Of a stretch of DNA of 64,000 nt, positions 1,031-63,504 are shown in pieces. The first letter of the stretch is position 1. The number at the start of each line of letters is the position of its first letter. Source of the stretch: Antedon mediterranea (taxonomy: Eukaryota; Echinodermata; Crinoidea; Comatulida; Antedonidae); contig NC_092671.1 of the NCBI RefSeq assembly GCF_964355755.1, positions 36,783,304 through 36,847,303 of the forward strand, given 5' to 3'. The translations under genes were made by a program, and so were the position numbers. The notes under the pieces are model-generated. The model was not told where the DNA came from. It did no database searches and saw only the letters and a list, made by a program, of their open reading frames with translations.

Positions 1031-1789
1031 AATTGCATCGTGCTGTAGTGACATGATACAATATTTTCCAATCTAATCTATTTATTTTACAACAATGCAT
1101 TCAGCCTCATGTTCCCTCAACTATGTAAAGATATGAGGTATTTTTAAATGATTTGACACTTTTTTTTATAATAAGTACTAAAACGATTGCAATGAGCAAA
1201 ATGAATCTCTTCTTGACACCATTTGCAGAAATTAAATTATACCAAGGCAATTTTTCTAATAACTCTGCAGGCTTCATTAAACGCTACGCTAATACTAAAA
1301 TTCCTCCACTGGGAAGAATAAAATGAAGCAGGTTATTAAAGTCACGATTCTCATATATAATTCTTACTTCTGAACGGTTATCAGACGATTGGCTAGTGAG
1401 TAAACTACAGTGTTACACTTCCCCCTTGAGGCACATGTACAACACCTATCAGTGTATTGGCGTTTAATGGCAAGTATTTCATCTTAGGCATACATTCTGT
1501 GATCTGTCGATGATGCTGAATATTATCTATCCTACACTGTAACTAAATACTCCTGCACTGTCAACATCTGGGTCACAGAACTTTTCCTTGGAGAGAGAAA
1601 ATCTAGAATCTGTATCAAATTGGACGAACTTTAATAACATGGAAACTATCCAAATTAATTGGAAATTATTAATGAATAATATTGATTACATTTTACTTCT
1701 TTTAAGATTTTATGCTTTGAAAGAAATGTATTGTAGGTCATCTAATTTTTATGTATTTTCAAATTATATATCTTCTGCCATATATTATT

Positions 1790-1965
1790 GTTATACGTGT
1801 TTGTATGTTTATGCCGTTTGTTGTAATTATCTGTTTTTAAAGGACTGCAATGGAATGAGGTTGATTTTCCTTTCGCATTAAGGGCTATCCTTAGTTTTTT
1901 ATTTAATGTATTTGCTTGTAAATTGTTTGTATTCATATTATCAATCAATCAATCAATAATTTTTA
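1790..1965 (+). mobile_element. LINE 3'-end fragment with (ATCA)n tail
   Basis: It ends in TCAATCAATCAATCAA, the short tandem tail typical of CR1-group LINE 3' ends. No coding part is left. Confidence 0.35.
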
Positions 1966-2333
1966 TTTCTCAAATAAAAACAAAATACAGTTAACATTTT
2001 CTAAAAATAATAGATAATAAATGAGAAAAAGGGGTACCCCACTGGAAGCTTAAGCTTTAAAATGTGGGGTCCTGGCAACATAATTAAAAATATTGTCTTG
2101 TAATCTTATGGTGAAACCGAATCAAATCCAATCATTTTTATCAAACCTATTGAGTTATACCGCTGTTAACTATAGGTTGTATTTGATTAAGCTGCTCTTG
2201 CAAAAAAGACCTACTTTGTTTATTACAGATATTATATTAGTCATAATAATATGAATTTGAACATCAGAAACGATGTATACATCAAAGTAATGCATCCTGA
2301 ATAGTCATAAACGGAAGTATCATCAGGTATTAT

Positions 2334-2354
2334 TATATATATATATATATATAT
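2334..2354. repeat. (TA)n microsatellite
   Basis: About ten TA units; a second (TA)n run lies at 63904-63921. Confidence 0.9.
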
Positions 2355-2456
2355 ACTCTTTACAAAAAATATATATATCACTTACATTTCCTACCAACGA
2401 AAGCTAATCAAAATATTAACCGATACTGTACTGTATGTACTTTTCCTATGCAGCGT

Positions 2457-2630
2457 TTAAAGATGTATTGTCCCCAACAACATGAAAAATGAATTTTTTT
2501 TTTGCTTTAAATTACAGTTTTTCACGTAAATACAATTTTACAATTTTTGGTACTGTAAAAATGGATAATTATTATGTTACATTAAAATGACATATTCAAC
2601 AAAAATAATTATTTTTCCAGGGGGAGAATA
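2457..2630. mobile_element. TTAAAG-TIR MITE, copy 1 (internally deleted)
   Basis: Left end TTTAAAGATGTATTGTCCCC and right end matching GGGGGAGAATAAT. It shares the CATTAAAATGACATATTCAA interior with the other copies. Confidence 0.6.
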
Positions 2631-3239
2631 ATGAATCCATTCTTCTTGAATAGTAAATTTATTCCATAACCTAAAAGTCATCCAAGTTAATCATGTTATA
2701 TCGAAAAATTACAAAGAAGAGGTTAGGCTGCTTGATAAAAATCAAATTTGGCTTAATGGTGACCCCACCCAATACAACAACAGCAATGTCAATAAATTTA
2801 ACTATATTTCATTCCTGGATGTAATTGTTTGATATCCTGACCTACATTCATATGTGCTGCAGCATCATGCTACATGGCAGTGATCTTCCGGTTTCTCCTT
2901 CCCGAGGGAATTTACAATAGGACAAATTGCCATTCCTAGAAGAATCATGATGATCAAAAACTTTTGAGGCATTTTACTTCCTCAGTTTCGATTCACTAGT
3001 TTATATATAATTTTATATAACAGTTAAATAAATTCCTGGCATTTGATTGGAAGATTGTGGGTCACATGGCGTGCAATAGTGCGATAGCTAATTCTATATA
3101 GGTATTATTAAGTAGGTATTACAGTCAAGAGATTATTTTAAAATAATAGTTAAGTACTTGTTGCTACAGAAAAATTCATTTTAATTTCATAAATATAACG
3201 CATCAATTTTTATCATCAAAATTTCTGAATATTTTAATG

Positions 3240-3605
3240 CTCTTAAATTTGACCTGTTAATTCACATTTTAGCTTATCACAGTTATAACTGCTGCTGCCT
3301 TTGACCCGCTAATTTACATAGCGCATTAGCTCATTAGTTTATCACTGCTATAGACTTTATATAAATGACCTTTGACCTGCTAATTTGCATAGCGCATTAG
3401 CTCATTAGTTTATCATTGCTATAGACTTTATATAAATGACCTTTGACCTGCTAATTTGCATAGCGCATTAGCTCATTAGTTTATCATTGCTATAGACTTT
3501 ATATAAATGACCTTTGACCTGCTAATTTACATAGCGCATTAGCTCATTAGTTTATCATTGCTATAGACTTGATATAAATGACCTTTGACCTGCTAATTTG
3601 CATAG
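3240..3605. repeat. 71-bp tandem repeat carrying DR1 and octamer sites
   Basis: The 71-bp unit starts ATAAATGACCTTTGACCTGC at 3361, 3432, 3503 and 3574, with diverged copies before it. Four units have a perfect TGACCTTTGACCT, and three of them have ATTTGCAT 5 bp later. Confidence 0.9.
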
Positions 3606-4713
3606 TCGTAGCACTGCCTGTTTATCAATGCCCAGGTAATGAACCTGAAACACAAAGAAACCTGAGCCTAGGCGATCATCTAATTAAACTGCACTACCGA
3701 TACAATGTTCATTTTTATTATATCACGGACGCTGCTTGATATACAAGAGTGTTCCTGTTGGCGTCTACTGATTGAATATATACATAATATTTAGATTGTG
3801 TTAATGAGAAATGATTCTGATTGTTATCAAATTAAATTATAATAGTTTGATTAACAGGTTTTAAAACCAAATTGTCATGATTGAGAAAGCAGTTTATATA
3901 TCAATCCAATTATGTCCAACTTGTCGATAATTGTAAATAATTTATAACGGTTTAATAGAATATAAGATTTCCTATTTAAAGCTATGATTCCTAGTAAACA
4001 CTAAATGGAAATGTGTTGTGTGTGTGCCACTTTGTGATATTTTGGAATTAAAAATAATCTAATTTTTTATTTATAAACTATTAATACATTTTTGTTCTTC
4101 AATCCCATTTTGAATTCTCTTCTCTTCCCAAAAACCTCAGTCTATGGCGCTATAAATTTACATTTTATGCCTCCATGCTTAGTCCGTTTTCATAATATTC
4201 GAATGGAGTTGGTTTTGGACCCAGTTAATTTTATGCACTACTATCTTCTTTCAAATTGTTTTTTTTTTTTGTTTTGTTTGACAGAGATTCTAACAAATAT
4301 ACAGTGATCTTTACAATTTTTAACTCGAACAATAAATAGTGCATTTATGATCATACAGTTAGTATTCTTTATAACAGTGTCTACATGTTAACTAGGTCAA
4401 AAGTAATATAATGTAATTTTACAATGTAAAACATGTTCTTAAACAAGAGTATAATATAATCCCAGACGATACTACTACACTAGCAAAACGATAAATTGTT
4501 ATTAGACATCGTACATCAATTCTCTGTCTTATTCTGTTTCCTTGCCACTTTGATTACACTTTCTTTACTATCATTGCCTAAATGGGGACAAGTGAAAAGG
4601 TGACTTATATAACAGCTTTTGTTGGCCTAGTAAATCTTATAATAGGTAGTCATACATATATAGACTGTACTATATTACTGTATAGTAGTGGTATTCCGTA
4701 AATAAATTGAATC

Positions 4714-5179
4714 TTTAAAGATGTATTGTCCCCCTGAAAAAATAATTCTTAAACAATTTTTTGTTGAATATTCCATTTTAATGTAACATATAGTTATCAA
4801 CTTTGACCAAAAATTGGATCGAAAAAAATGTATTTACCCGAAAAAAATTCATTTACCCGAAAAAAATTTATTTACCTGAAAAAAAATGTAATTTAAAGAA
4901 AAAAAAAGGTCAAATTGGCTGCCAGCCAATGGATTTTTGGTTGAATTTAACCATTTATTTGTCATTTTATAAGTGAAAACATGATTTTGTTCGGTTTTTT
5001 TTTTATGGAAGTGATTAACTTTATTAAAACTACAAAATAACATATTAAAAGTCTGATTTAATTATTCTTCATTTTTAAATTTTAGGTCAAAGTGGATAAC
5101 TATTATGTTACATTAAAATGGAATATTCAACAACAACATTTTTAAGAATTCTTTTTTCAGGGGGACAATACATCTTTAA
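4714..5179. mobile_element. TTAAAG-TIR MITE, copy 2 (longest)
   Basis: Ends TTAAAGATGTATTGTCCCCC and its inverse at 5160-5179. The interior has GGCTGCCAGCCAATGG and CATTAAAATGGAATATTCAA, shared with the 34.3 and 46.1 kb copies. Confidence 0.7.
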
Positions 5180-5595
5180 ACGGGCAAACAAATATATTCA
5201 ATTTTGTAAAATAGTTTCTGTTACTTCATTCTGCCAAATACATAAAGTTCTTTAAATATATTCACTATACTTGTATTTAATTATATTATTCAAAACTTTC
5301 TAACTGTACTTTTACTGTTTATATACAATACAAACAACAATTATTCTAAAATTAGTGAAGACATAAAATGATATTCTTTTAAAGTGTTCAAGTTGGTTAA
5401 GAAAGGTCAAAAGAGTAACATATAAATAGGTTGTAATTGGACTAATTTAATATGCTATGCCATTCTGCTAAATTAAAGCAAGAATTTAAAACCTCCAAGA
5501 CATTCATTCACACGCAATAAAAAGTCCAATATATAAACTTACCCACAATAAAAAAAGCCAGAGTAGATGTGGAAAAAATGTAAAGGAAACCTATT

Positions 5596-5697
5596 GCTCT
5601 GTCTACACTACCATATTTGGGCATATCACTACCATATTTGGGCATATCACTACCATATTTGGGTACATCACACTAGTTTGATAGTGTAGGCAGAGCT
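5596..5697. mobile_element. CArG MITE copy 1
   Basis: Family ends are CTCTGTCTACACTATCAAAC and its inverse. This copy lost its inner arms and holds three tandem CCATATTTGG boxes in a 21-bp period. Confidence 0.75.
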
Positions 5698-7900
5698 TTA
5701 CTTATATGTTTGACATAATCGTTTGACATAATCGTTTAGATTAATCTTTGATTAAAGTGATTAAAATCAAAGACACAATCTTAATAGAGATCAATAGTTT
5801 GCTTTTTAATTATATTGTTTTTAAAGAACTTTTTAAATCTAACTTAATCAGTTCTTACTTAGCGCCAGAAAAAGGTTTATCTTTAAAAGCTATACCAAAG
5901 TGGTCTATAATTATAAGACAACACATATTGTAGTTTGAAGTGCAGTTTGTAAAATGTACTTTCATCTAATTGTATCTCGAGACAACACAGTTTTCGATGA
6001 CAAGAAAAATGATCTCAGTGTCTTTACTGCATGACTATTAAGCACTTTCTTATTGTCCATGCTTATTGTAACCAGTTGTAACTAAAACAGTGTTATGGGA
6101 CAATCAATAGAACAATACACTAATCCTTTGGTATGTGATTAGGGAAAGAAAAGAAATCTGATGAATAAAAGACAGCATGAGTAGTTGAAACCTATTATTC
6201 TCATAACTATCATAACAAGAGGCAATTCACAGAGGTGTGAAGAGGTCCGATAAATGGCTAGTTGGGATTTCAATAGAGGCTATTGAATGCTAGATTTGGG
6301 CAATTACAGGTATGCTTTGGCCCCCCTGGTGGACAGGTAACTGTGGGCTTTCAAATAAAGGGCATTGACTAAATTATTATTGTGTTCACCTACGCATAAA
6401 TTTCCCAAGCTTTAAAAATCACAAAGTATATTTCTCTTTCGTTTTCTAAGAAGAAAGGAACAATAATATCCAATAATCTTTCACAATGTTATTGATTAAG
6501 AAAAGATAAGGTTTCTAAAGGAAATAAAAATGATAGGAACTAATCAGTTGTAGATTAATCTACGTATTCAATGGGCAATTTCTTTTTTTATTTATTGCAG
6601 TATATTGAAGATTTGTGGTAGGGGGTTAATGATAAACTTCATAGCAATGAACCACCCTGATAATATAAATGTCTTTCCAGCTATAAACACCCAGTGTTGA
6701 CATGCAGTGGAGAAGCTATCGGTCAATCCATAGTTTGTAAATTTAATTCATGATCACTTCATTTTATTTATGAAATGTTACATTTTGTATATTGTCATTA
6801 CGTAGGAAGATAGATATTATATTAATTTTATAAAAAATAAGAAAGATATTTAATTTAAACCGCACTGAATTAAATTTCCTAAGCGTATTAAAATAAGAAG
6901 TAACAAATAAACCCTCATTTTATTGTAAAGATTGATAAAAAAACAACAAGCCAACATCTACAACATTGTCATTACAGTACACCCCAAACTCTAACAATGG
7001 TACAGTCCAGAATTGGTGGGTACAGTCCAGAATGGGTGGTTATAATTGTCGTAGTGGTTATTGTCCAATTTCCAAAACATTTAAGTTGTAGTTTATAATC
7101 TAATTTAAATAAATAAACAACAATTCATAATTGTGAATGTAGTTGAAATATTATATTTTTGTACTAATATCACATTTAAATTAATTAATTGGATCCAGAT
7201 AAAATTATTAAAATAATTCATAGTGCTTTATTTACATTTTAAAGAAATCACGTTGATAATTTACTTGAATGAATCTATTCAATCATTGCAATAAGGACAG
7301 AATTGTGACTACCTTGATTATAAAATTAAATATTAATGAAGCAGGTGTTTTATTTGTGTACACTGCTTAAGAGACACAGACATCAAATAATATAACAATG
7401 CTCTTCTTATAAATATTGCACATTCAATTATTTAGCCAAATTTCTAAACATATTGCATTTAAAATAGCCGTCTAGATCAATAACAACAATATGAAAAAAC
7501 ACTTCCTTTCGTTTACACCCTGGAGAAGCCCCCTTACAACAATCTAAAATCAATGAATATATTGCATTATTTTTATTAAAAGGTCATAGATATTATTAAT
7601 GTGTTGGTAAGTATTATTAAATAATGTCCGCAAGATTTGCCTTTAGATACAAGCCCTTCGTAATCAGTCTACTTAACAACCATTTTGTTTTATAATTCAT
7701 CATCTTCTCGGTAATCAATCACATATAAATCACGCAAGACGTTTTAAACTCCAGCAAAATAAAGAAACTGTGCGTCGGGGCAAAGCTAAATTAAACATAG
7801 CAAATCCGGACGGTAAGCCTTAAGTGCTATTATTTCCATTGGCCTAGAAACCTAAACCTTTTATAAACTGATGGAACTTAATATAATACACCCACATATA

Positions 7901-8058: not shown

Positions 8059-8528
8059 AAGACTGTAAACTGAATATACAGTTTACACACCTAGTGTTCG
8101 GATGCGTTAAAGGCCTGAAATATTAACATAACCAAGAAATCACCTACAAAATAGAAATATAGATGAAACAAAACCCTTGTTGCTCAAATGTTTGTTGAAT
8201 ATGAACTTTGACCTTTTATTAATCAGGGATTTAATATAATTATTCTACTGTGAGCACTCATGTGGAACCAGTCTAGATGCAATGGCCTGAACACTTAATG
8301 AGACTTATAACACTGTGTTTTTTTATTAAATTTTTTTTTAAAATACAACCTATAGTATAGTATTATTAGTAGTCATATGTACAAAATATACTACTTGTAC
8401 ACAACATGGATATGTAAAGATATTATATATTCATCTCATGAATGTCTGTATTTCATCAATATATAGGCCTATACAAACTTAGTCCGTGACCCAAGATTAA
8501 AATTCCAAGCATGATAGAACAATTATTT

Positions 8529-50010: not shown

Positions 50011-50209
50011 AATAACTACCCTGGTTAAATTTTGATAAAAATGTTTTATTTCTTTACATGAACATCCGACAAAACATTGACTTTTTAATAGGAGCTTCGC
50101 AATCGTTTTTTTGTTGTTGTTTTTCTTTATATAAACAACAGAGGGCGGCAAACACAGTTTTGCGATCACACACGACGTACACACGTCACAGTCAGTCACC
50201 ATTTGGAGC

Positions 50210-50253
50210 TATATATCCAATACCAAATTGGCGAGTAAATCATGTTTTACTTT
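50210..50253 (-). promoter_or_regulatory. core promoter of the three-module gene (33-bp element plus TATATA)
   Basis: Reading the minus strand from 50253 to 50221, the element contains AGTAAAACATGATTTACT (a dyad, AGTAAA/TTTACT), then CGCCA and TTTGGTA. After 5 nt comes TATATA (50215-50210). A start near 50180 is expected, giving about 170 nt of 5' UTR. The same 33 bp with one mismatch and the same 5-nt spacing to TATATA precedes the hinderin-like gene. Confidence 0.6.
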
Positions 50254-50603
50254 AAATTAAATTTATACGCTCTTCCACAAGGTCAATTGTTAGTTATACA
50301 TACAGACTATATTAAAACAATGATTTTGAACACGTAGGGCATTTCTTTGAATTCTTTCCTATTGTCGTTTTGTGGTAATTTACAGCTTTTTATATGTTTA
50401 ACAAACGTACATAATCAATTGCGTCTGCATCATGCTAGACTACAACTTCCGGTAGTGACGTAATCAGCATATTTTTGGTAATAAAACTTTTTCACTAAGC
50501 TAGGGAATCTTCTGATATCAATATTCATTAGACCGTACTTTAGTTAGCCAATCAAAATAAACGTATAAACAATTTTGCGGCGATGTTGTTGAGGTAAAAT
50601 ATA

Positions 50604-52960
50604 CTGTGTTTTACAATAACCAATTTGGTTAGAGTAAAACACAATGATAAAGAATAGGAAACATTTAATAATATGATAAATGTCATTTACATAGCAATTT
50701 AGCACTGTGTTTTACTATAACCAATTTGGTTAAAGTAAAGCAGAATGATAAAGAATAGGAATTTAATAATATGATATATGACATTTACATAGCAATTTAG
50801 CACTGTGTTTTACTATAACCAATTTGGTTAGAGTAAAACACAATGATAAAGAATAGGAAATATTTAATAATATGATAAATGACATTTACATAGCAATTTA
50901 GCACTGTGTTTTACTATAACCAATTTGGTTAAAGTAAAGCAGAATGATAAAGAATAGGAATTTAATAATATGATATATGACATTTACATAGCAATTTAGC
51001 ACTGTGTTTTACTATAACCAATTTGGTTAGAGTAAAACACAATGATAAAGAATAGGAAATATTTAATAATAATGATTATTTACATAGCAATTTAGCACTG
51101 TGTTTTACTATAACCAATTTGGTTATAGTAAAACACAATGATATAGAATAGGAAACATTTAATAATATGATAAATGACATTTACATAGCAATTTATCACT
51201 GTGTTTTACTATAACCAATTTGGTTAGAGTAAAACACAATGATAAAGAATAGGAAACATTTAATAATAATGATTATTTACATAGCAATTTAGCACTGTGT
51301 TTTAATATAACCAATTTGGTTATAGTAAAACACAATGATAAAGAATAGGAAACATTTAATAATATGATATATGACATTCACATAGCAATTTAGCACTGTG
51401 TTTTACTATAACCAATTTGGTTAGAGTAAAACACAATGATATAGAATAGGAAACATTTAATAATTTGATAAATGACATTTACATAGCAATTTAGCACTGT
51501 GTTTTACTATAACCAATTTGGTTAAAGTAAAACACAATGATAAAGAATAGGAAACACTTAATAATATGATAAATGACATTTACATAGCAATTTAGCACTG
51601 TGTTTTACTATAACCAATTTGGTTAAAGTAAAGCAGAATGATAAAGAATAGGAATTTAATAATATGATATATGACATTTACATAGCAATTTAGCACTGTG
51701 TTTTACTATAACCAATTTGGTTAGAGTAAAACACAATGATAAAGAATAGGAAATATTTAATAATAATGATTATTTACATAGCAATTTAGCACTGTGTTTT
51801 ACTATAACCAATTTGGTTATAGTAAAACACAATGATATAGAATAGGAAACATTTAATAATATGATAAATGACATTTACATAGCAATTTATCACTGTGTTT
51901 TACTATAACCAATTTGGTTATGGTAAAGCACAATGATATAGAATAGGAAACATTTAATAATATGATAAATGACATTTACATAGCAATTTAGCACTGTGTT
52001 TTACTATAACCAATTTGGTTAAAGTAAAACATAATGATAAAGAATAGGAAACATTTAATAATATGATAAATGACATTTACATAGCAATTTATCACTGTGT
52101 TTTACTATAACCAATTTGGTTATGGTAAAGCACAATGATATAGAATAGGAAACATTTAATAATAATGATTATTTACATAGCAATTTAGCACCATGTTTTA
52201 CTATAACCAATTTGGTTATGGTAAAGCACAATGATATAGAATAGGAAACATTTAATAATATGATAAATGTCATTACATAGCAATTTAGCACTGTGTTTTA
52301 CTATAACCAATTTGGTTAGAGTAAAACACAATGACAAAGAATAGGAAACATTTAATAATAATGATTATTTACATAGCTAGCAATTTAGCACAATGTTTTA
52401 CTATAACCAATTTGGTTATGGTAAAGCACAATGATATAGAAATAGGAAACATTTGATAATATGATAAATGTCATTACATAGCAATTTAGCACTGTGTTTT
52501 ACTATAACCAATTTGGTTAGAGTAAAACACAATGATAAAGAATAGGAAACATTTAATAACATGATAAATGACATTCACATAGAAATTTAGCACTGTGTTT
52601 TACTATAACCAATTTGATTAGAGTAAAGCACAATGATAAAGAATATGAAACATTTAATAATATGATAAATGACATTTACATAGTAATTTATCACTGTGTT
52701 TTACTATAACCAATTTGGTTAGAGTAAAACATTTTAACTATGATAAATGATATTTAGCACTGTGCTGGATACAGTAAAACACAAATTAAGAATAGGAAAC
52801 ATATAATAATATGATACATTTACATACAAATTTAGTATTGTGTTTTACTATAGCCAATTTGGTTACAGTAAAACACAATGATAATGAAACATTTATTATA
52901 TGATATTATTTACATAGCAAAATATTATATTAAACATATCTTATTATCTAAACGTTATGA
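50604..52960. repeat. ~100-bp satellite, left arm, about 23 units
   Basis: Each unit reads GTGTTTTACTATAACCAATT then TGGTTAGAGTAAAACACAAT and ATAAAGAATAGGAAACATTT, ending ACATAGCAATTTAGCACT. Units at the inner end (52.7-52.96 kb) are degraded. Adjacent unit types recur in order, suggesting multi-unit amplification. Confidence 0.92.
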
Positions 52961-52969
52961 AAAGAATAG

Positions 52970-54200
52970 GATACATATAATGTAATAATATAATAAATAC
53001 AAGTTACATAGTTTATCATCTTGTTTTACAGAACCAATTTGGTGACACAGTTAAACACAGTGATAAAGAATAGATACTGTTTTAGGTTATATAACCCTAA
53101 CCCTAGTTTGAAGCGACATAATAAATTCATCGCGAAAAAGTACGTATCGTATTTAGAAACTTTTGAAATTTGTTAGATATGTTTAATAGGTTCTTACGTC
53201 TATAAAACAAACAAAAAATATAAATTTCACAAAAAAATCGTGATTTTAATAATTTGCATTTCTAAAAATGTACACTTATGAAATACCATACATTTTCCAA
53301 CACATTTTTACTTCATTGATGATTCCCAGAAATCAAAATAAAACAAATTATGATATTTCTTTTACATTATAGATGTAAGAACCTATATTGAACATGTACC
53401 AAATTTCAAACGTTTTTTAAGACGATACGTATTTTTATCGATGAATTAAGTATGTGATCGCTTCAAACTAGGGTTAGGGTTAAATAACCTAACAGTTCAT
53501 TCTTTAACACTGTGTTTAACTTTTAACCAAATTGGTTTTAGTACAACACAATGATAAACTATGTACATTTTATTTTTCATATTACATTATAGGATACATA
53601 TAATGTAATAATAATAAATACAAGTTACATAGTTTATCATCTTGTTTTACAGAACCAATTTGGTTACACAGTTAAACACAGTGATAAAGAATAGACACTG
53701 TTTTAGGTTATATAACTCTAACCCTAGTTTGAAGCGATCACATACTTAATTCATCGCGAAAAAATACGTATCGTATTCAGAAACATTTGAAATTTGGTAA
53801 ATATGTTCAATAGGTTCTTACGTCTATAAAACAAAACAAAAATAAAAGTTTCAAGACAAATTCGTGATTTTAATAATTTGCATTTCTAAACATTTACACT
53901 TATGAAAGACAATACATTTCCAACACATTTTTACTTCATTGATGATTCCCAGAAATCAAAATAAAACTATTAGGATATTTCTTTTGCATTATAGATGTAA
54001 GAACCTAAATTGAACATATCTACCAAATATCAAACGTTTTTCAAGACGATACGTATTTTTAGCGATGAATATTAAATATGTGATCGCTTCAAACTAGGGT
54101 TAGGGTTAAATAAACTAAAACAGTTCTATTCTTTATCACTCACTGTGTTTAACTTTTAACCAAAATGGTTATAGTAAAACACAATGATAAACGTACTTAT
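52970..54200. repeat. two direct copies of a 620-bp palindrome with telomere-like CCCTAACCCTAG
   Basis: Copies at about 52970-53585 and 53590-54200. Each has inverted arms reading AACCCTAACCCTAGTTTGAA then AATTCATCGCGAAAAA and ACGTATCGTATT, with the inverse CTAGGGTTAGGG at the other end. A decayed third right arm lies near 54690-54790. Confidence 0.85.
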
Positions 54201-55132
54201 ATGTCAATTTTATTTTTCATAACATAAAATGTTTGATATTCTTTATAATATTTAATATTATATTTTAGGCCTACTATTAATGACGTATAAATGCACACTA
54301 CATCTGAAATAACTTTCTACTTCATTGGCGATTCTTACCAAAAAAAAGAACTAATTTTGTTATGTATATAGAGCAACCTATTATAACATGTCTTGTATGA
54401 TTTTTATCTCGTTTCAATGACATTTTATACTACAATTCAAATGAAAAAGCATCACAAAAAAATACGTCTGGTATTCAAAAAGTTTCTAAACTCGGTACAC
54501 AGAAAAAAGGAAATGTTGAAAATGTATGGTCTTTCATAAGTGTGAATTTTTTGAAATGCAAATAATGGAAATCATCGATTTGTCTTGAAATTTATAATTT
54601 GTTTTGTCTTATTGAACATATCTATACAAAATGTCAAACGTTTCTGAATACGATACGTTTTTTTTCTCGATGAATTTATAATGTCGCTTCAAACTAGAGG
54701 GTAGGGTAGTAACCTAACAAGTATCTATTCTTTATCACTATGTTTAACTGTGTAACCATATTGGTTCTAATAAAAAACAATGATAAACTATGTAAATTGT
54801 ATGTTTCATATATTACATTTTTGCCAAAAAAAATTATTGGGAATGTCAAATTTCTTTTTCATGACATATATCTACAAATTTCAGAAGCTTTTGAGTACGA
54901 GTATTTTACGCGATGTTTTTTTATCCTCATTTTAATATTTTGGTAATGTAATTCACATAAAGTTTTGTATCCAAAAATTGTTTATTCTTGGGTAGAAATG
55001 AGGAAATAAATAGTATTCCTGTATAATATAATAATCAATAATAAAGTATAAAAAAAAGTGTTGTGTAAACGAACGTTTTTTACGCTTCGAATTTTCTGTT
55101 ACATTATGTTTGAATTGAAGCTACAGATATTG

Positions 55133-55173
55133 AATCATGGACCTATAAATTAGTAATTTATAGGTCCATGATT
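55133..55173. repeat. perfect 41-bp palindrome
   Basis: Left arm AATCATGGACCTATAAATTA (55133-55152), single G, and the exact reverse complement at 55154-55173. Confidence 0.95.
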
Positions 55174-55459
55174 GAACATATCGTCACTCACCACACATTT
55201 TTTGTTTTGTATTTCGAAAGTATTTATTCTAAAGAACAATTGATGCAAACATCAACTGCGTATCTTATTTCATTAATTAATTATATTAATTATAATTTGG
55301 CGATTATTCGTCACACGAAGAGTCGAATATCGATTCGTCTCGTCATGGGAAGAAAACGTGCATTGCGCACACTGTTTACGCGCCTCAACAATAAACGGCG
55401 AATATGCGATTCGTCACTTATGGAACGCCGTTTTACACAAGTTTTTGGCGATGATAAAA

Positions 55460-55665
55460 ATTGCGTCGATGATGAAATTGCGTCGATGAAAATTGCATCG
55501 ACGCAATGTAGATTGCGTCGATGCAATGTAGATTGCGTCGACGCAATTTACATTGCGTCGATGAAAATTGCATCGATGAAAATTGCGTCGATGAAAATTG
55601 CGTCGATGAAAACTGCATCGATGAAAATTGCGTCGATGAAAACTGCATCGATGAAAATTGATGTG
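55460..55665. repeat. 15-bp tandem array (forward)
   Basis: Repeats of GCGTCGATGAAAATT / GCATCGATGAAAACT, in frame as Ile-Ala-Ser-Met-Lys. Because the period is a multiple of three, it keeps long frames open on both strands. Confidence 0.9.
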
Positions 55666-56074
55666 ATGAATTTAATTGATTATGAAAATTCCAAATGGTT
55701 TTAATTCAATCAATGATGAAAATTACTACTAGTAAAGTAAATGATGATGTTAATAATGATGTTAATAATGTTATTATGTTGCTAAAAATTGACGGTTTCT
55801 GAATATTTTGATATGATAAACATGTTTACCGCTTGCGCTAGCGCGCGTTATAGACAAGCGCACAGTGATCGCGCACTAAAACAATGTTGAAATATATGCA
55901 CTGATTAACATTTTAGTGATTTATTGTCAACACATTTTAGCAATGGATCCATTATTGTCCTTTCGGACACATTATATCTTCTAGCTAATTGCTTCCGTTA
56001 ATCCACCAGTTCAGTACATAAAATCCAGATGTCCAGCATCCATGACATCATATTCAAATCATACCGGCAGGGAG

Positions 56075-56330
56075 ATCGCAATTTTCATCGATGAAAACTG
56101 CATCGATGAAAATTTTTTTTTTTTTCATCGATGCAGTTTTCATCGATGCAGTTTTCATCGACGCAATTTTCATCGACGCAATTTTCATCACATTAACGCA
56201 ATTTTCATTACATCGACGCAATTTTCATCGACGCAATGTTCATCACATCATTACATCAATACTATATTCATCGACGCAATTTTCATCACATCGACGCAAT
56301 TTTCATTGCATCATCGACGCGATTTTATCA
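56075..56330. repeat. 15-bp tandem array (inverted partner)
   Basis: Repeats of AATTTTCATCGACGC, the reverse complement of the 55.46-55.67 kb array. It is flanked outward by ATCATCGCCTAAACTGGCAT, which mirrors the outer flank of the forward array. Confidence 0.9.
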
Positions 56331-56699
56331 TCGCCTAAACTGGCATTCCATACTAATTGCGTGTGATCTGATTGGTGTATTATAAATAAATTCATCGCGA
56401 TGAATTTTTCAGTAGATGTAATGAGACAGTTCAGTAGATGTAATGACAGTTAATTTAATTGTTCTGCTCTTTTTGTACAAATCTATACTACTTTATATTA
56501 TGGATTTTGTAGTACTGTTAAAATTATTAAATCTCTGGAAGTGTGTTTTACGAGTATGTCCGCAAATTTATGCGTTTACGGTTTTAAAATGTGAGTTTTA
56601 AATAGCGAACATGATCTTGTTAGGTGCACTACGCACGCAGTATTCCAAAATGTCTTACTAATTGGGAGAAAATCATATTGTATCATATCATATTATATC

Positions 56700-58110
56700 C
56701 ATTCTTTAAATTCATATTCTTTATCCAAAACTAAATTGGTATAGTAAAACACAGTGCTAGCAATTTATCATATTATTAAATGTTTCATATTCTTTATCAT
56801 TGTGTTTTACTCTAATCAAATTGGTATAGTAAAACACAGTGCTAAATTGCTATGTGAATGTCATTTATCATATTTTTAAATGTTTCCTATTCTTTATCAT
56901 TGTGCTTTACCATAACCAAATTGGTTATAGTAAAACACAGTGCTAAATTGCTATGTAAATGTTATTATCATATTATTAAATTCCTATTCTTTATCATTGT
57001 GTTTTACTCTAACCAAATTGGTTATAGTAAAACACAGTGATAAATTGCTATGTAAATGTAATTTATCATATTATTAAATGTTTCCTATTCTTTATCATTG
57101 TGTTTTACTCTAACCAAATTGGTTATAGTAAAACACAGTGATAAATTGCTATGTAAATGTAATTTATCATGTTATTAAATGTTTCCTATTCTTTATCGTT
57201 GAGTTTTACTCTAATCAAATTGGTTATAGTAAAACACAGTGCTAAATTGCTATGTAAATGTTATATATCATATTATTAAATGTTTCCTATTCTTTATCAT
57301 TGTGTTTTACTTTAATCTGATTGGTTATAGTAAAACACAGTGCTAAATTGCTATGTGAATGTCATTTATCATGTTATTAAATGTTTCCTATTCTTTATCA
57401 TTGTGCTTTACTCTAACCAAATTGGTTATAGTAAAACACAGTGCTAAATTGCTATGTAAATGTCATTTATCATGTTATTAAATGTTTCTTATTCTTTATC
57501 ATTGTGTTTTACTCTAACCAAATTGGTTATAGTAAAACACAGTGATAAATTGCTATGTAAATGTAATTTATCATGTTATTAAATGTTTCCTATTCTTTAT
57601 CGTTGTGTTTTACTCTAATCAAATTGGTTATAGTAAAACACAGTGCTAAATTGCTATGTAAATGTTATATATCATATTATTAAATGTTTCCTATTCTTTA
57701 TCATTGTGTTTTACTCTAATCTGATTGGTTATAGTAAAACACAGTGCTAAATTGCTATGTGAATGTCATTTATCATGTTATTAAATGTTTCCTATTCTTT
57801 ATCATTGTGCTTTACTCTAACCAAATTGGTTATAGTAAAACACAGTGCTAAATTGCTAAATGTCATATATCATGTTATTAAATGTTTCTTATTCTTTATC
57901 ATTGTGTTTTACTCTAACCAAATTGGTTATAGTAAAACACAGTGCTAAATTGCTATGTAAATGTAATTTATCATATTATTAAATGTTTCCTATTCTTTAT
58001 CATTGTGTTTTACTCTAACCAAATTGGTTATAATTTATTTAATTTCATTTCAAAAGACATTTACCTAAATTGCTATTTAATTATAGTAAAACACTGTGCT
58101 AAATTGCTAT
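56700..58110. repeat. ~100-bp satellite, right arm, about 14 units in reverse orientation
   Basis: Units are the reverse complement of the left array (CTAAATTGCTATGTAAATGT, then TTTCCTATTCTTTATCATTG, then CTCTAACCAAATTGGTTATA). Confidence 0.92.
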
Positions 58111-58285
58111 TGTATTAAGGACGAGTTCCGAGAAGATGTATTCAAAGCTACAACCAATCAGAACAGTGTTAATCAATATAGTCCATGGCTACAGCCAATC
58201 AGAAACGTCCAAATCGCAATAACCCCTAGGCTAATAGAAATTATTGGTCCGAGTAGCCTTTTCAACCAGACGTTGCGAGGTTTAA

Positions 58286-58329
58286 AAAGTAAAACATGAT
58301 TTACTCGCCAGTTTGGTATAGTTTATATA
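58286..58329 (+). promoter_or_regulatory. core promoter of the hinderin-like gene (33-bp element plus TATATA)
   Basis: The 33-bp element occupies 58286-58318 and differs from the 50221-50253 copy only at one base (CGCCAG versus CGCCAA). TATATA follows at 58324-58329, and the first ATG is at 58395. Upstream CCAATCAG boxes near 58156 and 58196 also fit a promoter. Confidence 0.6.
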
Positions 58330-58394
58330 CCTGCCATTTGACCTCACCACACACCGCCAAAATTAAAAACAACATTTTATCTAGCCAGGAGAAA

Positions 58395-58452: not shown

Positions 58453-61400
58453 GTTATTAAGTTCTTGCGATGTGTAATTATTCAAGATAAAACTGTAGTA
58501 TTTATTTGTATAATGGTGGATTACCTATTAAGCCCTTATTAGCTATGTGGAATTACCTTCTTTGAGAGTGAGCTGAGAGGCTAGGCCTAGCTAGGCTAGC
58601 CAATGTTGGGCAAGTCTCTAACAAAAGGGCTTTCCTACCTCCTCCTAGCCTCTAGTCTTAGTTTAGGTAGGCCAAGTAGTAGTAGTAGGCAGGGCTAGAA
58701 TAGCTAGGGGTAGTACAGTTGTAGTCCTTTTTACAAACTTTATATCATTTAAAATCAAGTGAATAGTATTTATATTCATTATGTCTAAAGATACGGTACC
58801 GTATCCATACTTTTAAAAACTAAAGGTACGGTAATTATAGAGGGCGCTTTGTAATCTGGATGTTAATCAAATAGGTTATTGCATTGGTTTTCTGCAAGCC
58901 AGCTGTGTAGCCTAGTGGGCATGTGGTGAGGCTTTGGCTTAAGAGGTTGTAGGTTCGATACTCTTCTTGACGTCTTTTTTTAATTTTTTTTTTTTAGTTT
59001 TTAATTTAAGAGAGATTATTTAGAGGGTTAGGTTTTTAATATTTAGGAAGGAGTTTAATATTTAGGAACGAGTTTTATATTTAGGTACGAGTTTTAGGAA
59101 TGCAATTTTACCGTACTTTTAGCAAACGGAAGCGCCCTCTATAATTACCGTATCTTTAGTTTTTAAAAGCATGGATACGGTACCGTATCTTTAGCAACGG
59201 CGATTTATATTATGTAAATACAGTATTAAAATGTGCTTTCAAATTCAGATTTGACCATAAATTAAAACATTATTAATCTTAATTTGTTTTTATTTTATTA
59301 TAGAAAGTGATGAAAGTTCTTCTGAAGCATTTATTCCTGGTAAATAAATCTACCCAACACACAAAAAAAAAAGATTATTGCATCTCTTGAATGAAGAAGC
59401 CGGCATACATGCATGTGAAAGCTCATTTGGATGAAAAATAGACAAAAAATATTGTGTCTAAAAACGTAAACAGACTAGTGAAGTGGAATAAACACATCTC
59501 TCTGACTACTGGTAAATGCAATAAACTTGTAGGATTTATTAAGAGGTGTGTTAGAACCAATGATCAGACCGTTTTTCCTAAATTATTTAAGTCTATCATT
59601 AGGCCTGTAATTGAATACGCTTCACCTGTCTGGTTTCCATTTCTGCAAAGCACCATCAATCAGATTGAATCTGTTCAGAGACGCTTTACACGATCATGCT
59701 TCCCACGTTTTTTTCACATGGATTATGACATGCGGCCGTCATACGAACAAAGGTTACGGACTCTAAAATTACCCACGATTTATAATAGACTTAAATTCAT
59801 CCGTGTTAAATTTGTTGTGAAGTGCCTCTGTACAGATTTCCTAATTGATGGTGCTTTGCTACCTAAACCTGTTGAACGTAGAAGTGAGAAACTTGTTTTC
59901 AGACATGAGAAGTCTCGTACTAATGCTTTTTTTTATTCTGTTTTTATTTCATTTCCACGGATGTGGGATGAGATTCCGGTATATATAACAGACATGTTTA
60001 TTTATAATGATTGCAATTTTTATTCTGTTTTATATAAATTCTATGTTACCGGGTTGTTAAATGTTTATCCTTGTTAATGTTATTTTGCCACCAGCACTAT
60101 CAGGAGAGTCTTTTATAGCGATATTTTTTGCTTTTTGACAATCCGCCAGGATAGTGTTCTGCGCTTTTTCTCTGCTTGTTGTTGTTCTATGTAATATATG
60201 CTTTTTGTATTGTTTTTGTATTATTTTTTCTGGATAATAAATGAATATATGAATATGAATACTAGTAAATAATAACCCGCATAAATGTAGATGTCGCCTA
60301 ATTAATTTATGGCAGTAACATTTTGAAATATTGAATTTTTATTGTTTATTTATTATAGGATTGACACAAAATAATAAAATGAAATCTTCAAAATTGAATG
60401 AAAAGAGAGTAAATTCAACAAAGTCAAACTCAGTGAAACAACGGCGATTAAAATCCGATAAAGAGGTAAAGTCATCTGTATATTCGACCTGTCATAATAA
60501 TATAAAACTAAATCATAATAATAAAGAAAAATTAATACAAACAATTATATAAAATACAATGATATATAGCAAAAATACAAAGTGGTTCAGTATGTAAAAC
60601 AGAATGTCTTTGATTTTAGAATTCAAATATGAAAGAAGATCGAGACAAGCCATCTTTAAAAGATTTATGTGCAGAAGACAAGACGCGGGTTGCCAACTTG
60701 ATAAGAGAGTTAGCCAAGTATGTCATGCAGTAATGTAGCTAAACAAGTATAAAGCTCTGTCCACACTATCAAACTTTATGTTGCAAAAAAACATGATGTG
60801 CCCATATCCAAATCACTACCATATTTGGGCATATCACTACCATATTTAGGAACATCACCCTTTTCTTCAAACTAGTTAGTGTAGAAAGGGCTTTAGGGTG
60901 GTGTTAAAAGTTATGGATACGGTAGGAAAGAAGGTTTCTTGGTTTCTTGGTTCTATGGTGAGATTATACTTATTATTCTCTGTCTACACTATCAAACATT
61001 ATGTAAAAACAAAATTTGATGTACTCATATATGGTGGTGATATGCCCAAATATGGTAGTGATATAAAATCATATCCATATATGGGCACATCACATAAAGT
61101 TTGATAGTGTAGACAGAGCTTAACACAAGTTAAACTTGTACACTTATAATTAGTGCCTAGTAAATAATACTTTGTATCAGTATCTTTTGATGCATATAGC
61201 TATGTTGACAAGTATATTTATCTCTTTTTTGCAACCTTATAGAACGGGTCGAGAAAAGGACAATGCAACAAATGAGTTGGAATCAGAAAGGAAAAAATAT
61301 CACCTACAAGAACAGCAAAGCAAAGAGCAGTTAAAGTTGTTGGAAAAGGAAAGAGACAATATCTTTACTGGTTTTTGAAAGCAAACTAGTTAGCTAGCCA

Positions 61401-63504
61401 ACTAGTTAATGTTAGGTGGTATAAAGCTCTGTCTACACTATCAAATATTTGACCACATCAAACTTTTTTTGTCAAACTAGTTTGATAGTGTAGACAGAGG
61501 TTTAGACACAGATTAGAGCAAAGCTGTTGTTTATAATGAGTGAAGAGTTGGCTGAAAGGTTTTTAATTGATAAGAATTCAAATTACTTTCCCACTTCTTT
61601 TCAGCACAACTGTATCTCTACAATATGTAAACTAAATACAATCTATGATAACAACAACAAACAAATCTAATTCTTAACTCTTCGTACCAGTAAAGAAACA
61701 CTATGTTGACTGTCAACAGCTTCTTGCGCAATACCAGAAGGAACTAAACGAAGAACAGTTAAAGGTGGCAGAAGCTGTCGAAAAGAACAGGGAAAAAGAG
61801 AAAGCTCTGAAAGCTGCACAAGAGATGGCAGAACAGAAAGCAGCGTTGGCTGCCAAAGTTGATGCGGAGAAGGAACGAGAGATTGCAGAGAAAGCTGCCC
61901 AGATTGTTGCGGAAAAAGAAATTGCAGACCAGAAGAGATCATTGATTGCTGAGAATGAAAGGTTTGCAATGGTGAGTAGGTAATGGAAATGAGGTGGATA
62001 ATGTACATCTTTCTATGTTTCTGCAAAACTAGAAATATTTTTTTTTCTCTTTCCAGTATCAGAATGGTGATCAGAACCGGTCAAGACAAAATAGAACAAA
62101 ATCTTCACATCAAAATCATTCCACAGTTGGTCCTCCTAAAGTGCATACAAAGATTCCTGTTGAGGGAGAGTTCTATCCAGCTATGACCAGTACAAATCGT
62201 ACCAAACTTGTAGGAGAATTTTATCCAGCTATGACCAGTACAAACCGTGCCCAACATAATGGAGAATTTTATCCAGTTATGATCAGTACAAACCAGTTAC
62301 ATCATCATTTATCTCAGAATATTCCTCCACAATCAAAGGAATTAAGAAACCAGGCAAATAACCTCAAGGATCCAAACTGGTTTGTCAATGATGTAGAAGA
62401 TCCCAGGAGGTCAGTGGAAGAGTTCCACGCTCTTGAAGCTCAAGTCGATGACACTCCAACATTAGAAGATGGTTTTACACCGATGTTACCGGTTGAACGT
62501 CAAGAGTATAACGATACTGCCCCAGAGTACAGACAGAGCTACATGCACTTGACATCTGAACAAAGATGGAATGAACTTCTACAGCACAGAAAAAAACTGC
62601 GTGACGAACAAGAATGGCTTCGGAGAAAGCTTCATGAGCAAGAAGAGTTGTTAAAACATCGACACAAAGTGGAGACTCATGTTGCAACAAAGCCTTTAAC
62701 TCCTGCTCACTTGTTATCAGAACAGCATAGTGAACCTGGTTGGCCAGTGTCACCTTCAAGGCCTACTCCTTCTCATCGAAAATCTGAACCAGTATCAACT
62801 CAGAATATGAGAAATGGACATCCTGATGAAAGGATTAACAGTGGCTATCTTTCAAGAGCCTTTAGTAGCCATCAACCAGGTAGTAGAAGACTGGTTTCAG
62901 AACCTAGACATAAAGCTGTTGCCATGGATGAAAGAGATGTAATAGCTAAGCAGAACCATCTGCATACACCTCCTTCGAAACAGACTGTAATAATGAAAGA
63001 CAAAGGTAAGGGAGAATAAAAAATAACACACTTAAAATATTATTATTAAAATAAAGACAGAAACTAAGAAATCAATTTAAACAATGCATAATCTTATTTT
63101 GTAATCTTAAGCTCTGTCTACACTATCAATGTTAAATTCTACTACACTGTTTGCAGTGATACTGTATAATACTATTTTAACATTAAAAAAAAAATCTTTC
63201 TATTTAAAACTAAATCTCAAGTTATGCTGCTGTTTTTTCATGGAGGTAATTGTGGTACAGCGACAACAATGATTTGAACCATTGACTATGGAATTAATAA
63301 GCAAGCATGTCAACCACCAAACTACAGTGCCGCTACAATAGATTTATTAACCTAGAGTCCTTTGATATTTTATACAGGATGTTCACCACTTTATGTTGAA
63401 AGGGAAATACAGACTACATTGAAACAAACTGGTGGTGAGTCAAGAGACCGAGTGCTGGATTCGAACCGTTACAAGACAGATACAAGATATATGGAAAACA
63501 GAAG
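58395..63504 (+). CDS. KIAA1328-like: hinderin (KIAA1328)-like coiled-coil protein, eight exons, 3' end outside window
   Basis: Eight exons join in frame (1784 nt, about 594 residues), and the last leaves phase 2 with no later exon recognised. Motifs match what I remember of vertebrate hinderin in order. These are an N-terminal aromatic-Trp segment with SDES...AFIPG, then SLKDLCAEDKTRVANLIREL, a charged coiled coil, then CQQLLAQYQKELNEEQ and a long Ala/Glu/Lys coiled coil with EK heptads, and a low-complexity C-terminal half. Hinderin is described as a coiled-coil partner of SMC3; its cellular role is poorly defined. Human hinderin is about 577 residues, so most of the protein is here. Identification is from memory of the family, not a search. 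An odd feature is a threefold 16-residue repeat, GEFYPAMTSTN. Confidence 0.75.
58785..59194. mobile_element. non-autonomous DNA transposon with 65-bp terminal inverted repeats
   Basis: The left end (58785-58849) and right end (59130-59194) are near-perfect reverse complements, beginning CTAAAGATACGGTACCGTAT and ending at AGGGCGCTT. The 280-bp centre contains a tRNA-like SINE head. No clear target duplication is seen. Confidence 0.7.
58880..58985 (+). mobile_element. tRNA-like SINE head nested in a MITE
   Basis: The A-box-like TAGCCTAGTGGGC and B box AGGTTCGATACTC are followed by a T-rich tail. The whole sits inside the inverted-repeat element at 58785-59194. Confidence 0.5.
59304..59339 (+). 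CDS. hinderin-like exon 2
   Basis: A 36-nt microexon with acceptor TTATTATAG and donor GTAAAT. It encodes the acidic SDESSSEAFIPG; phase 1 in and out. Confidence 0.65.
59454..60255 (+). mobile_element. 5'-truncated non-LTR retrotransposon (LINE, CR1/Jockey-like), reverse-transcriptase C-terminus
   Basis: An intact frame to a stop at 60077 (207 codons) reads KLFKSIIRPVIEYASPVWFP, then INQIESVQRRFTR. These are typical residues C-terminal to the reverse-transcriptase domain of CR1/Jockey-superfamily LINEs. The catalytic FADD part and the endonuclease are missing, so the copy is dead. A 3' tail with repeated TGAATA-like units ends near 60255. It lies in the intron between exons 2 and 3 of the hinderin-like gene, in sense orientation. 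Confidence 0.8.
60359..60465 (+). CDS. hinderin-like exon 3
   Basis: Phase 1 in, 0 out. It encodes a basic, Asn/Lys/Ser-rich stretch (LTQNNKMKSSKLNEKR, then VKQRRLKSDKE). Confidence 0.7.
60620..60717 (+). CDS. hinderin-like exon 4 (signature segment)
   Basis: Phase 0 in, 2 out. It contains SLKDLCAEDKTRVANLIREL, the most diagnostic hinderin segment, and starts the coiled coil. Confidence 0.8.
60750..60895. mobile_element. CArG MITE copy 19
   Basis: It lies 33 bp downstream of hinderin-like exon 4; one CCATATTTGG. Confidence 0.75.
60976..61121. mobile_element. CArG MITE copy 20
   Basis: Two intact boxes; about 80 bp from copy 19, in the same intron. Confidence 0.78.
61243..61370 (+). CDS. 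hinderin-like exon 5 (coiled coil)
   Basis: Phase 2 in, 1 out. Heptad-like charged sequence TGREKDNATNELESERKKY through LLEKERDNIF. The donor GTTTTT is non-consensus, but the frame joins cleanly to exon 6. Confidence 0.72.
61421..61504. mobile_element. CArG MITE copy 21 (core deleted)
   Basis: Both termini are joined with little interior; no box left. Confidence 0.7.
61691..61971 (+). CDS. hinderin-like exon 6 (CQQLLAQYQ and long coiled coil)
   Basis: Phase 1 in, 0 out, with a strong GTGAGT donor. It reads KKHYVDCQQLLAQYQKELNE, followed by about 70 residues of Ala/Glu/Lys-rich coiled coil (EKEKALKAAQEMAEQKAALA and on). Confidence 0.82.
62057..63005 (+). CDS. hinderin-like exon 7 (large C-terminal exon)
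   Basis: 949 nt, strong CTCTTTCCAG acceptor, donor GTAAGG, phase 0 in, 1 out. It begins with an Asn/Gln/Ser-rich stretch, then three tandem 16-residue repeats (62165-62310). Next come a conserved-looking VEDPRRSVEEFHALEAQ, a basic coiled segment (EQRWNELLQHRKKLRDEQEW) and a Ser/Pro/His-rich tail. VEEFHA matches my memory of hinderin. Confidence 0.85.
63109..63131. mobile_element. CArG MITE single terminus
   Basis: One end only (AGCTCTGTCTACACTATCAA). Confidence 0.5.
63232..63345 (-). mobile_element. tRNA-like SINE head
   Basis: On the minus strand TAGTTTGGTGGTTGACATGC (A box) and GGTTCAAATCATT (B box) lie between partly pairing GCGGCA and TGTCGC ends. There is no proper cloverleaf, so it is not called as a tRNA gene. 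Confidence 0.5.
63378..63504 (+). CDS. hinderin-like exon 8
   Basis: Acceptor TTTTATACAG, phase 1 in, phase 2 out at GTTAGG. It reads CSPLYVEREIQTTLKQTGGE through YMENRR. The terminal exon was not found before the window ends. Confidence 0.65.

Follow-up and report, generated by a model that had tools for sequence, protein, structure and literature searches.

Mirrored TATATA-associated 33-mers at the outer ends of an inverted repeat in Antedon mediterranea lie in the terminal inverted repeats of a foldback-type DNA transposon

The window, i.e. the whole stretch of 64,000 nucleotides of contig NC_092671.1 that we analysed, contains a large inverted repeat whose arms each carry a 33-mer, at 50253-50221 on the minus strand and at 58286-58318 on the plus strand. 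The initial annotation had read this pair as a core promoter element shared by two divergent genes. Re-reading of the sequence confirmed that the 33-mers agree with one mismatch, in the claimed positions and orientation, and that the gap from 33-mer to TATATA is 5 nt at both sites, and an inverted-repeat search placed both at the outer ends of the repeat. The features of the locus, which we assign to a transposon family designated F1, are as follows (TIR, terminal inverted repeat).

50199-50205: left target-site duplication CCATTTG, identical to 58334-58340
50206-58333: whole transposon, family F1, 8,128 bp (sharp boundary, end pairing, 100% identical copy at C4:2999213-3007340)
50206-50253, minus strand: left TIR, including the reported 33-mer and TATATA (47 bp, 89% against the right end)
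50603-52731: left array, 101-bp tandem unit, 21.4 copies (TRF)
55114-55704, plus strand: 196-aa open frame, probably no gene (no Pfam match; absent from the copy L039)
55453-55660: 15-bp minisatellite GATGAAAATTGCGTC, inner left (TRF)
56122-56287: 15-bp minisatellite TTTTCATCGACGCAA, inverted counterpart of the GATGAAAATTGCGTC minisatellite (TRF)
56762-58032: right array, 101-bp unit inverted, 12.7 copies (TRF and inverted-repeat search)
58286-58333, plus strand: right TIR, including the reported 33-mer and TATATA (47 bp, 89% against the left end)
58334-58340: right target-site duplication CCATTTG, identical to 50199-50205

Each 101-bp unit contains a near-palindrome around CCAAATTGG, which matches at 34 of 37 positions. 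To the right of the element lie two plus-strand frames, one of 211 aa (59442-60074) with no Pfam match, which we take to resemble the tail of a LINE reverse transcriptase, and one of 328 aa (62033-63016), possibly a large exon, with no usable Pfam or PDB match.

A 101-bp query across the left site matched many places in the genome, and so did a query across the right site; the matches other than the window itself, among the best 40 for each query, ended near 50205 on the left and near 58333 on the right. Across 20 left ends, which came from the top of the match list and are hence selected for similarity, all 27 displayed columns from GAGCT inward were invariant and no displayed column outside exceeded 12 of 20. 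This sharp boundary and the 7-bp duplications therefore define an element of 8,128 bp at 50206-58333. The 33-mers of the initial annotation are thus real, but its limits were drawn too far inward, the true ends being 50206 and 58333, and the TA target duplication that it proposed gives way to the 7-bp CCATTTG found at 50199-50205 and 58334-58340.

The 33-mer recurs far above chance: in the 354-Mb genome, a combined 31-bp end pattern occurs at 169 sites when as many as 3 mismatches are allowed, and its control, the same pattern read backwards, at none. The left-end pattern (up to 3 mismatches) marked 57 left ends genome-wide and the right-end pattern 58 right ends with 0-2 mismatches, each with 0 matches to its control. 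When each opening end was joined to the first closing end that follows at no more than 30 kb, 108 of these 115 ends paired convergently to give 54 elements with a median of 8.8 kb (30 left-right, 23 right-left, one left-left and no right-right), and F1 elements were present on all 11 large contigs. Among the matches listed, 28 of 40 left ends, that of the window included, have a listed right end in fitting orientation 5.2-22.8 kb away. A perfect 7-bp duplication was found in all 20 of a set of F1 copies read at both ends (the window and 19 others) and in eight of nine further two-ended copies; overall, 29 of the 31 F1 elements read at both ends have one. At C2:11106978-11114814 the duplication agrees over 5 bp only, and an old 1,437-bp element (L066, C2:5381595-5383031), segments of which are 67-71% similar to the window copy, showed no duplication at the ends read. 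We also observed a 553-bp palindromic mini-copy with two left ends (L052, C10:7470327-7470879); since this has its own 7-bp duplication, ACTGAAG, two left ends are enough for insertion.

Part of the family was read at full length. The copy at C4:2999213-3007340, on another chromosome, equals the window element at 8,128 of 8,128 positions, and the window insertion therefore looks very young; identity to the window element is 99.4% for L038 along the entire length and 97.2% for L037 along 7.8 kb. Older copies exist as well. Some 4.5 kb were read at each of the seven ends left without a partner by the exact pattern, and all seven contained F1-type sequence, with segments longer than 70 bp at about 70-99% identity to the window copy; at L085 and L090 the partner was missed because the alignment continues into a diverged left end.

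These data show paired inverted ends and a fixed-length duplication at unrelated sites, which mark a cut-and-paste DNA transposon, together with the long inverted arms of tandem subrepeats, variable in unit number, that mark a foldback element. The 33-mers form the inner, conserved portion of the TIRs of a single foldback-type DNA transposon, and the equal TATATA spacing is simply part of the TIR. The sequence at 50206-58333 is almost certainly an F1 transposon of foldback type, without a recognizable transposase, for which CCATTTG served as the target site and was duplicated on insertion.

Two other origins had been put forward for the mirrored sites. According to one, expanding repeats divided an ancestral bidirectional core promoter and moved its parts 8 kb apart, a history for which only the mirrored arrangement and the same distance to TATATA at both sites speak. 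With 54 end pairs spread over all 11 large contigs, 7-bp duplications at nearly all of the copies read, and a full-length identical copy at another place, the evidence against it is so strong that we give it practically no credence. The other held that the TIRs of a large element had been adopted as promoters, and its first half stands, on the evidence of the paired ends, the 7-bp duplications and the full-length identical copy. Its second half, that the TIRs supplied the promoters of one or both adjoining genes after insertion, fits the TATATA motifs close to each end, an ATG at about 58395 that by eye starts a short frame, and the 328-aa frame on the right, but we judge it very improbable: the insertion looks very young, and among the flanking open reading frames tested none had a Pfam family above the cut-off, so that no gene was identified by Pfam on either side. 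Dozens of genome copies, one of them letter-for-letter identical, make the pattern that of a recently active transposon and not one of common gene control. A false lead on common promoters is thereby removed, and an exactly bounded, very young 8-kb mobile element takes its place.

No transposase emerged from the F1 copies scanned. The longest frame in the window element is of 196 aa and has no Pfam match; it is kept in the close copies L037 and L038 and missing from the more diverged L039, the longest frames of the three being 196, 196 and 113 aa respectively. Three long F1 copies of 15-23 kb were considered as autonomous candidates and rejected, as they consist of arrays, F1 interior and nested DNA and contain no open reading frame above 196 aa. 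L001 has a frame of 166 aa that was likewise rejected as an F1 gene, since it belongs to a nested high-copy family, presumably a LINE, with frames of more than 1,000 aa, and a 202-aa frame in L005 had no Pfam match. Scanning about 4.5 kb at each of the seven unpaired ends revealed no transposase, the sole longer frame there (173 aa, L090) lying outside the F1 part. A genome profile search placed none of 35 PF21787 matches and none of 24 PF21789 matches within F1 elements, and of three KDZ matches in the genome none lies within F1. These scans covered part of the copies, and a coding F1 copy may exist.

P-type transposases are present in this genome, as the 35 PF21787 matches indicate. One young P family, with two copies 99.5% identical and domains PF21787 and PF21788, has 47-bp TIRs and 7-bp duplications in both copies, and in a second P family three copies, read by eye, showed duplications of 7 bp, of 8 bp and of an imperfect kind, respectively; the F1 TIR was found in neither family. 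The P loci L046-L051 and L053-L058 contained no F1 ends in the stretches read, several of which stop before the elements' own ends, and none of the 35 PF21787 matches and copies scanned yielded a P-type transposase with F1 or F2 ends (F2 being the sister family described below). Several features of these loci were observed in passing. At L046 and L048 the P transposase (1881-4262 and 1319-3169 respectively, plus strand) is accompanied by a convergent frame of about 340 aa (4368-5378 and 4856-5881 respectively, minus strand) with no Pfam match; the two convergent frames show a distant resemblance to each other (23% across 187 aa, E 2e-7), and the one of L048 shares 33% identity with a frame in L051 (E 2e-41). 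The N-terminus of the L048 transposase matches zf-AD below threshold (25.8 bits against a cut-off of 28), and THAP was not among the matches listed. At L046 (1-500 and 6050-6501) the young P element breaks a retroelement frame, which we take to be gag-like, with a 7-bp duplication, CGGACAC, at the break.

At 3 mismatches the right-end pattern also matched 49 further sites, and all 42 of those listed share one other end sequence, which defines a sister family, F2. Our description of full-length F2 is that of one copy (L059+L060, C1:15786460-15799030, 12,571 bp), in which the outer 50 bp are identical at both ends, a 7-bp duplication, CAATCGA, can be seen by eye, and the inverted arrays are built of a 106-bp unit, with about 66% identity to those of F1. 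A further locus, L061, joins an F2 end to a different interior, and the frames in the part of it that was read do not exceed 69 aa. Among the 42 listed F2 ends, five lie within 10 kb of an F1 element (C2:14548477, C5:29591075, C6:2688458, C7:26546743 and C8:17104066), which suggests nested insertions or common target regions.

The array unit appears to resemble the TIR core, clearly in F2 and more weakly in F1. When the F2 TIR was aligned with its own unit, none of 1,000 shuffles reached the alignment score, whereas for the F1 TIRs and the F1 unit 375 and 140 of 1,000 did so under free alignment, which is not significant, and 34 to 352 of 1,000 under other scoring. With the F2 register and its 2-nt gap imposed, the top two of 202 registers for the F1 left TIR were the halves of the unit palindrome (20 and 19 matches of 27, the next register giving 15), and the right TIR gave 18 and 18, with 15 for the next; one of the two best F1 registers is the place homologous to that of F2. 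Comparing own with foreign unit, we counted 24 against 17 matches of 27 for F2, 20 against 16 for F1 left and 18 against 19 for F1 right, so that two of these three ends fit the unit of their own family better and the third, the F1 right TIR, narrowly does not. The word AGTAAAAC occurs 64 times in F1 and twice in F2, and GTTGAGAA 54 times in F2 and never in F1, these being counts from amplified units and hence not independent events.

Mobilization would fall to a transposase whose gene lies elsewhere, which would bind both ends, bring them together and move the element by cut and paste, and the array units would multiply putative transposase-binding sites at each end, which is their likely role. 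As no transposase with F1 ends was found, we infer the class of this enzyme from the duplication length and the arm architecture, which point, with moderate confidence on our part, to the P superfamily, as in Galileo, as its most likely source. F1 is no proven member of Galileo or the P superfamily, because an open reading frame with the P-type RNase H fold and THAP was absent from the copies scanned, which are possibly the non-coding ones only. Superfamilies with 6-8-bp duplications, namely Dada, hAT and KDZ, are the candidates if the mobilizing transposase came from outside the P superfamily, an alternative that we rate as quite possible, if short of an even chance. It would accord with the lack of PF21787 and PF21789 matches within F1 and of any P gene found with F1 or F2 ends, with the difference between the TIRs of the young P element and of F1, and with the occurrence of foldback structure in several superfamilies, Tetris having been assigned to Mutator (available text of PMC4079207). 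Against it, 7 bp is the duplication length of Galileo (PMC4168063 and PMC2775673, as far as their accessible text goes), duplications of that length also flank both copies of the young P family found here, and the few KDZ matches all lie outside F1.

Retaining a P-type enzyme as the preferred reading, we put forward only tentatively, and as a rather doubtful proposal, that F1 and F2 are sister foldback families, at about 7 to 45 units per array, in which each unit carries the family's own TIR words (AGTAAAAC in F1, GTTGAGAA in F2), with arrays and ends together tracking one evolving P-type transposase DNA-binding specificity; on this reading both are parasites without any coding capacity, and the number of their binding sites decides their competition for a common transposase. 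What interests us most is the way in which TIR and array unit run parallel in the two families, and F1 and F2 together lend themselves naturally to testing a proposal made for Galileo, by which the tandem repeats of long TIRs give transposase binding specificity.

Long inverted arms with a subrepeat structure are also known from FB of D. melanogaster and TU of sea urchin, the subrepeat and duplication lengths of which are other than those of F1. Both are named as foldback elements in the available text of PMC4079207, which describes Tetris, a foldback element of Drosophila virilis assigned to Mutator, with units of about 220 bp, duplications of 8-10 bp and a 37-bp stretch, about 80% alike, shared between the unit and its outer domain. 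As far as that text allows comparison, F1 is like Tetris in having an outer domain and a tandem-array domain in each arm, a variable number of units and, apparently, a stretch common to unit and outer domain, and no transposase-bearing copy is known for Tetris or was found for F1. It differs in its 101-bp units and in its 7-bp duplication, which lies outside the 8-10 bp of the Mutator type.

Galileo, of the P superfamily in Drosophila, is described in the text accessible to us as making 7-bp duplications and having long, internally repetitive TIRs (PMC4168063, PMC2775673 and PMC3573991), the repeats of which contain extra THAP-binding sites (PMC3688188). Compared by description (duplication length and architecture), F1 shares with it the 7-bp duplications (a length that, with 8 bp in some, marks Galileo and the P superfamily), the long inverted arms with a variable number of internal tandem repeats, the short conserved outer ends (a terminal sequence of about 40 bp in Galileo) and the many copies without a transposase; extra binding sites in the repeats are shown for Galileo and inferred for F1. 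Within the same limits of the sources, F1 is unlike Galileo in its much larger arrays (21.4 and 12.7 units in the window copy), in that no transposase-bearing copy was found, and in lacking the GTANTAC target preference, a motif absent from the 21 duplications tabulated, in which the first base was C or A in 18 and the last base G in 12. The F1 family is named in no title that we found in the open-licence literature, where Galileo, Tetris and other foldback elements do appear. The comparison suggests that F1 is a foldback element of an established, Galileo-like type, and its long, nearly identical inverted arms, dispersed over all 11 large contigs, may well give rise to ectopic recombination and inversions, for which Galileo provides the demonstrated case in Drosophila.
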